Shown: piece by piece, positions 23,188 through 26,832 of the stretch
Numbering within the stretch: the stretch's first letter is position 1
Layout of the letters: every line of letters begins with the position of its first letter
NCBI GenBank assembly: GCA_020850325.1
Contig: JADZEW010000007.1
Location: 1 to 56,219 of the forward strand
Source of the DNA: Methanoregulaceae archaeon
GTDB taxonomy: Bacteria > Armatimonadota > Fimbriimonadia > Fimbriimonadales > Fimbriimonadaceae
Direction of reading: 5' to 3'
DNA length: 56,219 bases
The notes under the pieces: model-generated
Databases searched by the model: none
The model's input: the letters and a program-made list of their open reading frames with translations, nothing else
Told to the model about the DNA's origin: nothing
Position numbers and translations under genes: made by a program

Positions 23188-23868
23188 CTACCGGGTCGGG
23201 GGAGCGGGACCGGTTGAGTCCTTGCTTAACTTCGCTCTTCGCTCAGCTTCAGTCCGAAGTGAGTTGATCTGTTGATCCCACGACACGGATACGCCTGGCT
23301 TGCTCGACGGGAAGTGTTTCAAACCAAGGGCCGTCAACTTCTTCCGATCCCGCTCAGCGGCGAAAGCAGCGGCACTATAGGGTAAGGCGTCGACTCTTCC
23401 TGCTCGCAGCCCTTCGAGTAGCCATGCGTTTGAGAGGGTCGCGTAGAGCGTGTTCCAATAGCCCCACTTCTTCTCCACAGCTTGAAATGCGACGCTCACG
23501 CCTACGCTGAGCTGAATCTTGTTCACCCAGTACATCCGCTCACACGAGCCGACGCCTTGATCGAGATTCAAGCTCATCTGGTACTCACCAACTCCACCTC
23601 GAAACGCTGGCGAGAGGTACTTGGTGAAGACCTCTCGCAACTCATCGTTCGAGAGGCCATAGCGGCTCGCTTCCCCGGGGGGAAGCGATGCCCTCCACTT
23701 TACGAAGTCGCCCTTCTCAAGTGCAATAAGAGACTCCTTAGCGAGGTCAGCCAAATCGTGACGTCCACGCGCTACGTGGTAAGGTTCGCGGTTAGGCGAT
23801 CGAAGAAGAAGAACCGTTAGGGCAATCATCGCGATCGCCACCGCACCAAGCGTGAGTTGTCGCCTCAT
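23188..23868 (-). CDS. Hypothetical membrane-anchored protein
   Basis: No family recognised. The 226-residue protein has an N-terminal signal anchor (LGAVAIAMIALTVLLL) and an external helical domain with KESLIALEKGDFVKWRASLPPGEASRYGLSNDELREVF, a pattern of small lipid- or peptide-binding folds, then a basic C-terminus ending PAPPTR. It overlaps the upstream Cys-rich gene by four bases and is the last gene of the operon starting at 25669. Confidence 0.65.
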   Translation of the reverse strand: MRRQLTLGAVAIAMIALTVLLLRSPNREPYHVARGRHDLADLAKESLIALEKGDFVKWRASLPPGEASRYGLSNDELREVFTKYLSPAFRGGVGEYQMSLNLDQGVGSCERMYWVNKIQLSVGVSVAFQAVEKKWGYWNTLYATLSNAWLLEGLRAGRVDALPYSAAAFAAERDRKKLTALGLKHFPSSKPGVSVSWDQQINSLRTEAERRAKLSKDSTGPAPPTR

Positions 23869-24305
23869 GGTGCGGAAGGTGGCGAACCCGAACAGCTATA
23901 CTCGCCTGGCCCGCTACAGTCACCCTGTGCGACAAACGGAGTGCAGTAAGCGGGGTTCTGCGCTCGCGTCGTTCGGATTTCCCTTAGAACAGCCTGAACT
24001 CTGGTGTTACCTTCTGGATAGTAGTAGGAGTATGTGGTTATGCAGCACCAGTTCGATGATTCAGTGGAAGCATTTTGGCACCACTGGTAGGATCCGAAGT
24101 AAACATCATTGTCCTTAGCTTTGCCCCAATTTACGTTGCAGTAAATCCCTTCAGCGCATCCGCCCTTTGAGGGGTTCGATAGGTCAAGCATGTTTGACGA
24201 CAATGCTTTCACGCCACCGTCAAGCTGCAATTGGCTCCGACGGTACATCACGAGAAGCATAACAATCCCCACAAGGCAGACTGCCGCAATCACCCATCTC
24301 GCCAT
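23865..24305 (-). CDS. Cys-rich exported protein, paralogue B
   Basis: No family recognised. The 146-residue protein has an N-terminal membrane segment (WVIAAVCLVGIVMLLVMY) and a Cys-rich domain nearly collinear with paralogue A: GCAEGIYCN, FGSYQWCQNAS, NWCCITTY, YYYPEGNT, VLREIRTTRAQNPAYC, GDCSGPGEYSC. Eight conserved Cys suggest four disulfides in an exported domain. The ATG at 24305 overlaps the stop of the preceding paralogue by one base; an upstream in-frame start at 24344 would lie inside that gene. Tandem duplication is evident. Confidence 0.7.
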   Translation of the reverse strand: MARWVIAAVCLVGIVMLLVMYRRSQLQLDGGVKALSSNMLDLSNPSKGGCAEGIYCNVNWGKAKDNDVYFGSYQWCQNASTESSNWCCITTYSYYYPEGNTRVQAVLREIRTTRAQNPAYCTPFVAQGDCSGPGEYSCSGSPPSAP

Positions 24306-24676
24306 TAACCAGGTCCGGGCGGCATGGGCGCCGTGAAGACGCACGAGTAAACGCCAGGGCCATCACAGTTGCCGTTTCCGACGTAAGGATAGCAATAGGC
24401 TGGATTCTGTGCCTTAAACGTCCGAATCTCACGCAACACGGGAGCTACGTTGGTGTCGCCTTCAGGGTAGTACCAGTTGTAGGTGGTGATGCAACACCAA
24501 CTGGACGACTGTGTCGAGGCGTTCTGGCACCACTGAAACGTGCCAAAGAATAAGTCATCTTCCTCCGCAGTGCCGACATTTAGGTTGCAAGCAGTTCCGG
24601 CGCACCCGGATGACGGGAGCTGGGCGTGTGCGATGAGGCCAGTAAGCAGGCCAGCTACTAGAATGACTTTGATCAT
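24305..24676 (-). CDS. Cys-rich exported protein, paralogue A
   Basis: No family recognised. The 123-residue precursor has a cleavable signal peptide (MIKVILVAGLLTGLIAHAQ) and a domain with the spaced motifs GCAGTACN, DDLFFGTFQWCQNAS, WCCITTYNWYYPEGDT, VLREIRTFKAQNPAYC and GNCDGPGVYSC. AAGGAG lies 8 bases before the ATG at 24676, which fixes the start. That ATG overlaps the stop of the upstream gene in ATGA. Its partner at 23865-24305 shares all eight Cys. Confidence 0.75.
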   Translation of the reverse strand: MIKVILVAGLLTGLIAHAQLPSSGCAGTACNLNVGTAEEDDLFFGTFQWCQNASTQSSSWCCITTYNWYYPEGDTNVAPVLREIRTFKAQNPAYCYPYVGNGNCDGPGVYSCVFTAPMPPGPG

Positions 24677-25293
24677 ATTGGTTTCTCCTTGATCGGCATC
24701 GACTTCCACCAGGGTGCGTCTTGGTCTTCCCAATGCTCTCTAGGCACGGTGAGCCAATACTCCTTGCTTCTGTCCCAAAATCTGCTGTGCGGAATCCACC
24801 AGGCACCGAGTTGGCGCTTTCCCATCAATGTGCCTCCTCGATTCATCTCACTGGTGCGATAGAGATAGTTGTCGAGTAATGGTGGAACGTCGTCGTTATG
24901 GTTGAGACACGCCCAGATCACCGCGTAATCGCCTTCGGATTCGCGCTTTACCCTAAAGCTCGGAGTAAGAACTTCGCCGTAGACCGCTCGCTGTTCACGC
25001 GGCAGGTACATGTAGGGCATCTTCGCGAAAAATCTATGCCACGGTTCTTCCTCGCAGGGGTCGTCGAACATCTCCTCGACCATGTCAACGGCAACGGACA
25101 ATGGCGGAAACCCCAAGAGATCTCCGTTCTCGCCGTGATCCTGCTGATAGATTGAAGTGGCCTGCCAAAGCTTCTTCAAACTCTGCGTGCAGACCACTTC
25201 CTGCTGGTTCACCCTGGCGCATCCCATGACGACAAGTCCCAATCCCCACGCACCGAAGACAGCCGCACTAGCGCCCAGCAAGAAACTCTTCAT
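24673..25293 (-). CDS. Exported or lipoprotein, pseudopilin-like segment
   Basis: The 206-residue protein has an N-terminal hydrophobic stretch ending in VVMGC, a possible lipobox. Just after it comes VCTQSLKKLWQATSIYQQDHGENGDLLG, which resembles the [18 protein letters not shown] block of the pseudopilin at 41477-42253. The rest (PWHRFFAKMPYMYLPREQRAVYGEVL, Trp-rich C-terminus) is unfamiliar. No FTLIELL cleavage motif is present, so it is not an ordinary pilin. The ATG at 25293 follows GGAGACCT and lies inside the end of the thioredoxin-like gene (26-base overlap). Confidence 0.65.
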   Translation of the reverse strand: MKSFLLGASAAVFGAWGLGLVVMGCARVNQQEVVCTQSLKKLWQATSIYQQDHGENGDLLGFPPLSVAVDMVEEMFDDPCEEEPWHRFFAKMPYMYLPREQRAVYGEVLTPSFRVKRESEGDYAVIWACLNHNDDVPPLLDNYLYRTSEMNRGGTLMGKRQLGAWWIPHSRFWDRSKEYWLTVPREHWEDQDAPWWKSMPIKEKPI

Positions 25294-25669
25294 AGGTCTC
25301 CTCAATGCGTTGCAAGCTGACTTTTCCATCGAGGCTCACAAAACCAAGTCGTGGCACGACCGCTTCTGGGTGGAACGAACTATAGATGTCAGGCGCAAGA
25401 ACTGCAGTTGGCAATCCATTCTTCATAACTGGCGCCGGCGTCCCCCGATCCACGTACACGACCAAAGCCGGCCGACCGCCGATCTTTGCGGCCAGGCGGG
25501 ACAGATCGGTGCAACCAGAACATTCTCCGGCAAAAACGAGCACCCGACCTTTCGCGGCTTGCATGAACGCGGACGGCAGTGCATGCATACGAGTGTCAGA
25601 TTCGCATCCTGTCGCAATCGATACAAACAGTATTAATGCCCACCCGCAACTACCCGTTCGCGCACGCAT
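25268..25669 (-). CDS. Thioredoxin-like lipoprotein with CSGC motif
   Basis: The 133-residue protein has a lipoprotein signal (WALILFVSIATGC) and a thioredoxin-like domain: GRVLVFAGECSGCTDLSRLA with a CxxC, then PALVVYVDRG, TPAPVMKNGLPTAVLAPD (a cis-Pro-like region) and LGFVSLDGKVSL. It could be an envelope thiol-disulfide protein that acts on the Cys-rich proteins encoded downstream; this is inference. It is the first gene of a five-gene minus-strand operon, and its ATG sits 6 bases after a perfect TATAAT, implying a leaderless mRNA. Confidence 0.7.
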   Translation of the reverse strand: MRARTGSCGWALILFVSIATGCESDTRMHALPSAFMQAAKGRVLVFAGECSGCTDLSRLAAKIGGRPALVVYVDRGTPAPVMKNGLPTAVLAPDIYSSFHPEAVVPRLGFVSLDGKVSLQRIEETYEEFLAGR

Positions 25670-25675
25670 GAACGT

Positions 25676-25709
25676 ATTATATCGCGGGGGGGGGGGGGGG
25701 GCGTGTCAA
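25676..25709 (-). promoter_or_regulatory. Promoter with homopolymer in the spacer (candidate phase-variable)
   Basis: On the minus strand a perfect TTGACA (25709-25704) and a perfect TATAAT (25681-25676) are 22 bases apart, and 16 of those bases are an unbroken C tract (G tract on plus, 25686-25701). Optimal spacing would be 17, i.e. 11 Cs. The predicted +1 falls on the A of the start codon at 25669. Confidence 0.7.
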
Positions 25710-25776
25710 GAGTCTTTGAAAAAAATAGTCACCAGCAGCCTGCTGGTGACTTGATAGAACAAGGTTACGTGACCCT

Positions 25777-26832
25777 TTAGTTAGCGTCGCCGCGGGAGCC
25801 GGTCAGGCCCTCGAGCTTGTTCTCGGCCATGAACCGCTTGTAGGCGGCCTTCCACTGCTCTTGGAATGCGGTCCGATTCACATCGACCTTACTGTCCTTG
25901 AGCTTCGTGAGCACCTGACGATTGATGTCCTTGCCCTGAGCGCCCTTCAGCTTAGCCATCTGGCGTCGGAGAGCTTCCTTCTTCGTATCGTCCATGGTAA
26001 TCGGCTTCTCGGCCGTCTTCTTGTGGACGTAGAACTTGCCCCAACCATCGACGAACCGAATCCAATCGGTCGTTTCGCCGCCGTTGAAGTTGGCGATGGC
26101 CTTTTGCACGTCCTGAGGCAGCGACGTGATGGTGGGAGGCCCGGCGGCACTCAGCTTTCCGTTGTTGGCCTTCGCGTCCGGTGCTTCCGAGTAGCGAAGG
26201 GCGACCGTCGTGAAGCTCTGGCCGCTGGAGAGTTCTCGATCGACGGCGTCCTTCGTGCGTAGATCGCTCACCTTGATGTACGAGAGGTCGGCCCGAGCCG
26301 GATCGATAAACTCCTTGGGATTGTCCTTGACGTACTTCTCAGCGTCCGCAAGCGTGACCGTCACGTCCTTGGTGAGCATCTTCTCTTGGATGATGTCCAT
26401 GGTGATGCTCTGCCGGATCATGTCGAACGTGAGACCCCGGGCCGTGAGCGCCGTGAGGAAGTTGGGCTCCAGCTTCTTGCGGAACTCCAGTTCCTTGTTG
26501 ATCTCGTCCTCGGTCGGATACATCTGCTTGTCTTTGGCCAGCTGCATCGTGACCTTCTGAGCGATCAGATCCTGCATAGCTTGGAAGCCGAGAACGCCTT
26601 CGGTCCGCAGACTTGCGACTCCGTTCGCGGTGATGACTCGGACCTCGGGTTTGAACTCGAGGTAGCTGTAGTACTCTTTCTCGGTAATCGGCTCGCCGTT
26701 GATGACGGCGATGACGTCGGCGCCCTTACCGCAGCCGCTGACTCCAAAAATCAAACCGCAGGCGGCGAACCCTGCGATGGCGCCGATCATGAGACTGGTG
26801 TTATGCGTCTTCAAGCGATTGCCCCCGAACAT
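25777..26832 (-). CDS. Parvulin-type peptidyl-prolyl isomerase, lipoprotein
   Basis: Envelope folding factor of the SurA/PrsA type. The 351-residue protein has a signal ending GVSGC (lipobox), a helical chaperone region starting VIAVINGEPITEKEYYSYLEF, a degenerate parvulin domain with ADLSYIKVSDL, GQSFTTVALRYSEAPDAKANNGKLS and GGETTDWI, and a basic helical tail. The lipid anchor makes it PrsA-like. It is a paralogue of the exported protein at 13164-14114, which shares AVINGE and the same plan. The ATG at 26832 follows AGGA. Confidence 0.84.
   Translation of the reverse strand: MFGGNRLKTHNTSLMIGAIAGFAACGLIFGVSGCGKGADVIAVINGEPITEKEYYSYLEFKPEVRVITANGVASLRTEGVLGFQAMQDLIAQKVTMQLAKDKQMYPTEDEINKELEFRKKLEPNFLTALTARGLTFDMIRQSITMDIIQEKMLTKDVTVTLADAEKYVKDNPKEFIDPARADLSYIKVSDLRTKDAVDRELSSGQSFTTVALRYSEAPDAKANNGKLSAAGPPTITSLPQDVQKAIANFNGGETTDWIRFVDGWGKFYVHKKTAEKPITMDDTKKEALRRQMAKLKGAQGKDINRQVLTKLKDSKVDVNRTAFQEQWKAAYKRFMAENKLEGLTGSRGDAN

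Follow-up and report, generated by a model that had tools for sequence, protein, structure and literature searches.

A candidate leaderless, phase-variable promoter with a 16-base cytosine run in its spacer, read as a member of a wider group of poly-G/C contingency loci of an Armatimonadota genome

The promoter at positions 25667-25709 of the window, by which we mean the whole stretch of 56,219 nucleotides analysed here, is best explained, with a probability of about 0.83, as a leaderless phase-variable sigma-70-type promoter of the porA/tp0126 type; at its present length we expect it to be weak or OFF, and we place it in a larger contingency set. On the minus strand, from 25709 to 25667, the sequence reads TTGACA CG CCCCCCCCCCCCCCCC GCGA TATAAT ACGTTC ATG. 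The -35 box TTGACA (25704-25709) and the -10 box TATAAT (25676-25681, with no TG extension) both match the consensus perfectly, and they are separated by a spacer of 22 nucleotides (25682-25703) that consists of CG, a run of 16 Cs (25686-25701; G16 on the plus strand), which is the proposed slippage site, and GCGA. Six bases, ACGTTC (25670-25675), lie between the -10 box and the ATG codon at 25669. These elements had been described in the original prediction and were confirmed on the minus-strand sequence, as was its arithmetic that 11 Cs would give the ideal spacer of 17 (2+11+4 = 17), but the count of 16 Cs may be affected by sequencing error.

We infer that replication slippage in the C16 run would alter the distance between the intact TTGACA and TATAAT boxes, that with C11-C12, and hence about 17-18 nucleotides of spacer, RNA polymerase would contact both boxes and the operon would be ON, and that at the present spacer of 22 the promoter would be weak or OFF. 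The latter is predicted because no promoter-like pair with a spacer of 16-18 was found between 22900 and 26000 and because a TG extension is absent from the -10 box. The operon codes for small proteins that are predicted to be exported or anchored in the membrane, some of them rich in cysteine, so that with such a switch the cells of a population would differ in a surface or secreted trait. In this genome the TTGACA-N12..26-TATAAT pattern with both boxes perfect occurs four times in 3.5 Mb, and the other three pairs have a spacer of 18. Promoters of this genome that contain no run use spacers of 17-18, and an activity optimum near 17 is proposed here from such comparisons of spacers, including the clustering at 15-19 over 83 sites described below.

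The transcript is predicted to start at the ATG or an adjoining base (~25669, minus strand), given the position of the -10 box, which begins 12 bp 5' of the ATG, and a first gene with no Shine-Dalgarno sequence. A TANNNT motif about 12 bp 5' of the start codon is a published signature of leaderless genes in bacteria (PMC3160421). Gene 1 would thus be translated from a leaderless transcript, and genes 2-5 would follow as a compact operon. Upstream of the promoter is a gene for a SurA-like peptidyl-prolyl isomerase, and between the two lies a terminator-like hairpin with an 11-pair stem and a T run (25727-25751, minus strand). This stem was the longest in a terminator scan that was non-significant overall (three hairpins, 2.9 expected).

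The five genes downstream of the promoter are tightly packed on the minus strand, from 25669 to 23188. Gene 1 (25268-25669) encodes a protein of 133 amino acids with a lipoprotein-like signal and a CSGC motif, and gene 2 (24673-25293) a protein of 206 amino acids, counted from the ATG at 25293, with GAGGAG upstream and an N-terminal membrane segment. Gene 3 (24305-24676; 123 amino acids) has its own Shine-Dalgarno sequence, as does gene 2, and codes for a cysteine-rich protein with a signal peptide and a WCCITTY motif. The product of gene 4 (23865-24305; 146 amino acids) is membrane-anchored and 61% identical to that of gene 3 over about 100 amino acids, and the product of gene 5 (23188-23868; 226 amino acids) has an N-terminal membrane segment. 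All five proteins carry a hydrophobic N-terminal segment, either a signal peptide or a membrane segment, and for none of them was a Pfam or NCBIfam family found above the cut-off, so that, taken as a prediction, the original description of them as unfamiliar and exported is justified. From these N-terminal signals only, the operon is predicted to control surface or exported proteins. A thioredoxin fold for gene 1, a guess only, was not supported (single-sequence model with a pLDDT of 37 and no meaningful PDB match), and a hint of a FlmA RiPP in gene 3 (E 0.05) was below the cut-off and set aside. No relatives of the gene 3 protein were found in the 84 other genomes of the family, and none of gene 1 in the sister species G001; as far as these comparisons reach, the operon products are very lineage-specific.

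We compared the window to the genome of this sister species. A cassette of 2.6 kb on the minus strand (23203-25792), which contains the promoter and the operon, is absent from G001, where 90 bp are found in its place between flanks that are 88-90% identical. At three other runs (C1:328180, C8:80060 and C21:194844), too, homology to G001 ends no more than about 100 nt away. The absence of the cassette and the ends of homology near runs suggest that promoter and operon come and go together. Among the runs shared by the two species, an intragenic run is C11 in this genome (L040) and C10 in G001 (L322). Another intragenic run is G9 in both (L034/L321), in a gene that is 97% identical over 1.4 kb and identical across 309 bp around the run; given the 88-90% identity of the window flanks, this gene may possibly have been transferred recently.

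The C16 run is the longest G/C run of the genome (G000; 3.52 Mb in 41 contigs), and no other G/C run longer than 7 occurs in the window. Genome-wide, pattern searches recovered five G/C runs of at least 12 bases, as compared to 0.04-0.16 expected by extrapolation from the window. The length of the C16 run is far beyond chance. A G13 run (C8:80060/80061) and a G12 run (C8:166172/166173; L025) are located upstream of operons with cysteine-rich exported proteins. A G14 run on contig C16 (C16:12087-12100; L074 1588-1601) lies inside a gene for a membrane protein, and a G12 run (C12 on the coding strand; C30:86753; L075 3254-3265) inside a gene for an exported protein. Both are frame-breaking, as the two parts of the gene become one long open reading frame at a different run length: halves of 132 and 340 amino acids fuse to a frame of 455 amino acids in the first case, and a part of 119 amino acids with the signal peptide and a long downstream frame become one frame of 531 amino acids in the second. 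The genes that follow the one with the G14 run encode an exported protein rich in cysteine and a protein that resembles pseudopilins; directly upstream of the G14 gene, in the opposite direction, is a gene that we take, by eye, to be mutL (mismatch repair).

The frame-breaking runs identified in genes for exported proteins comprise those of four loci (L028, G14; L037, C12; L033, G8, directly after the signal peptide; L034, G9), and in other genomes of the family runs were found within the sequence that codes for the signal peptide (L106, L134, L136, L139, L143). Two operons also have a G9 run in what is probably their promoter spacer (L020, TTGATT-19-TATGGT; L032, TTGGAA-17-TATACT), and their second genes are related. 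The best reading is that the C16 promoter belongs to a collection of poly-G/C contingency loci spread over the genome, in promoters as well as in genes for exported proteins, and that many more promoters of this kind exist in the phylum. Among the run-linked operons compared, only the second genes of those on contigs C1 and C21 proved to be related to each other (E 4e-8). That the four operons of similar layout (in the window, at C8:80k, at C8:166k and on contig C16) are paralogues had been suspected but found no support in gene comparisons; the resemblance of gene 2 to the pseudopilin of another run-linked operon was weak and non-significant (E 0.06), and that of gene 5 to its counterpart in another such operon gave no support either (E 1.9).

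The promoter architecture recurs in the family and in the phylum. About 100 loci with runs of at least 11 bases were taken from 85 genomes of the family. Of 228 oriented runs, 8 had TTGACA at most 15 nt upstream, and none of the other 15-nt bins up to a distance of 300 nt held it more than twice. A search of the 85 genomes with the pattern TTGACA-N0..14-(G8)-N0..10-TANNNT, and with the corresponding C8 version, recovered 25 sites with a G run and 7 distinct ones with a C run, together 32 sites in 18 of the 85 genomes, and the reversed control pattern gave no match in the same genomes. Many runs in the genomes G057 and G068, where the surrounding DNA is repetitive or rich in G, were not taken as switches. 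When 291 genomes of the phylum were searched with the G version, 46 of them had matches, as compared to 3 control matches, and after the removal of overlapping duplicates 52 further G-run sites in 32 genomes were located outside the family. Reversal of the pattern allows for base composition but not for the natural co-occurrence of TTGACA with promoters, a gap that does not explain a long G/C run inside the spacer, and a chance origin of the architecture was rejected by these controls. The first genes behind the family promoters (L183-L214) code for small exported proteins that often contain cysteine, and related copies are present in one genome (G073; L193, L201, L205).

Spacers of 15-19 nucleotides were observed at 61 of 83 sites, a count that omits one family site with unusual spacing, versus 30% expected for uniform gaps (p ~2e-16). 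Family spacers of 20-22 (7 of 31) and 23 (1 of 31) were counted against the best explanation. An ATG codon follows the -10 box by 4-9 nt at 22 of the 32 family sites, and by exactly 6 nt at 12 sites, and these sites are nearly always predicted to encode an exported protein, a recurrence by which the leaderless reading is well supported. The leaderless start proposed for the window promoter is thus probable from comparison with the family sites, in which an ATG six bases after the -10 box recurs. When two sites with a poorer -10 box were added to the 32 family sites, an open reading frame of at least 60 amino acids was present within 60 nt of the run at 30 of the 34 sites, at a distance of 10-20 nt for 25 of them. 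Hydrophobic N-termini were found in 28 of these 30 first genes, as compared to 24 of 45 open reading frames in the window (p 1.5e-4). Leaderless promoters of a generic type that contain no run (TTGACA-N15..20-TANNNT-N4..9-ATG) numbered five in this genome, with spacers of 17-18 and gaps of 5-8 nt to the ATG, and the control gave none.

The homopolymer could instead be variable but act as an analogue tuner, with expression that is graded by its length in the manner of a rheostat or that depends on a bound regulator (opc and the Bordetella fim genes are examples), rather than through the spacing of the -35 and -10 boxes. The L025 run fits such an arrangement, since it overlaps the -35 position and is followed by TATAAT-6-ATG with no proper -35 box, which resembles opc and fim (PMC7864442, PMC1891110), and more than one submechanism may therefore exist. 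For the window promoter, however, we consider this explanation improbable, because TTGACA is intact there and at most of the family sites, with spacings near 17.

Changes in run length between related promoters favour the slippage switch. In the genome G057, related promoters contain C10 (L210), C11 (L214) and C12 (L213). Two copies of a promoter have G9 and G8 in G179, and two have G8 and G9 in G191, while copies in G183, G184 and G187 range from G8 to G11 between identical flanks. In the latter three genomes, the several copies per genome are of one promoter, TTGACAC-G8..11-ACAGAGTAGAAT. Such changes between paralogous promoters with matching flanks provide good indirect evidence, from relatives, for a change in run length. 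They also make it very unlikely that the G/C run is an invariant structural spacer, kept for DNA shape or for a G-quadruplex on the template strand. Sixteen Gs could form a quadruplex, and two runs do not differ in length between this genome and that of the sister species, namely the G9 run of L034/L321 and the only promoter-region run that both share, which is G12 in each (L025 1502-1513; L083 1498-1509), but G and C orientations both occur, and the intragenic runs break reading frames. The proposed slippage switch at the C16 promoter is thus supported, as a prediction, by the recurrence of the architecture, by spacers near 17 and by the differences in run length of paralogous promoters with matching flanks. 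That the C16 run is an assembly or sequencing artefact is hardly credible: several runs in draft genomes are located at contig ends, but the C16 run lies inside its contig with unique sequence on both sides, and the architecture is found in single-contig genomes (G005, G047, G077; Uphvl-Ar1 and -Ar2) and in many independent genomes, with a control near 0.

A strict leaderless pattern, TTGACA-N3..16-G8-TANNNT-N6-ATG, was also searched in genomes that represent one species each, where it matched 93 stretches, as compared to about 7 chance matches by a rough calculation. Among the 80 loci listed (L215-L294), long leaderless open reading frames for exported proteins include those of Phycisphaerales, Spirochaetia, Omnitrophota (prepilin-like) and Saccharibacteria, and many matches in Lachnospiraceae and Clostridia have an ATG followed by few codons only, for which reason the ATG in these is taken to be due to chance; their spacing still points to promoters. 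Among the same listed loci, related proteins are encoded behind the same promoter grammar in Phycisphaerales (L219, L230, L246), leaderless exported frames with this grammar occur in Spirochaetia (L249, L256), and prepilin-like genes are found in Omnitrophota and in FW104_bin.10 (L221, L223, L228, L260).

Simple-repeat phase variation has mostly been studied as a means of immune evasion in host-bound pathogens. The analysis suggests that environmental Armatimonadota may switch surface or secreted proteins by DNA slippage, as some pathogens do. More broadly, we think it somewhat probable that Armatimonadota, and probably several other environmental phyla, make use of numerous slippage promoters of the leaderless form (TTGACA, poly-G, TANNNT, six bases, ATG), together with poly-G reading frames, to diversify exported proteins specific to their lineages. 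Many of these would be on accessory cassettes that bring a switch of their own, and the whole would amount to a phasome outside host-associated pathogens with one grammar across phyla. The recurrence of this form in free-living and barely cultured bacteria implies another selective pressure, and phage, predators, surface attachment or kin interactions may be guessed at. Because the leaderless form joins the starts of transcription and translation in one module, the whole switch comprises only about 45 bp and would be able to travel with its cassette, and the promoter architecture offers a simple sequence signature for locating such switches in metagenomes.

A search within one collection of open literature recovered no paper on phase variation together with Armatimonadetes, which fits the original view that such a switch is new for these bacteria. 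The mechanism is known in pathogens, and it is the lineage, the leaderless form, the recurrence and the link to accessory cassettes that appear to be new. The window promoter shares with tp0126 of Treponema pallidum, an OmpW homologue, a poly-G run between the -35 and -10 boxes and, as far as the prediction for the window operon holds, an exported product, but T. pallidum is a host-bound pathogen, and leaderless geometry is not reported in the portion of the source consulted (PMC7864442). In porA of Neisseria meningitidis the homopolymer is likewise located in the spacer between the two boxes (PMC7864442, citing a 1995 J Bacteriol paper), and according to the same source the spacing optimum of both tp0126 and porA is 17. 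A homopolymer between intact -35 and -10 boxes is what was found at the C16 promoter, although porA is a single porin gene of an unrelated lineage and the C16 locus is an accessory operon with a predicted leaderless start. In opc of N. meningitidis and in fim2, fim3 and fimX of Bordetella, expression of a surface protein likewise depends on how long a C run in its promoter is (PMC3447861, PMC1891110), but in these cases the run extends into the -35 region or takes its place and a regulator is involved, whereas TTGACA is intact and perfect at the C16 promoter. The poly-G contingency genes of Campylobacter and Helicobacter, as described in the literature (PMC6321876, PMC2823697), are similar in their genome-wide G/C runs at surface genes and in frame switching; the difference is that the lineage studied here is GC-rich and environmental, and that its runs are often located in the spacers of putatively leaderless promoters.
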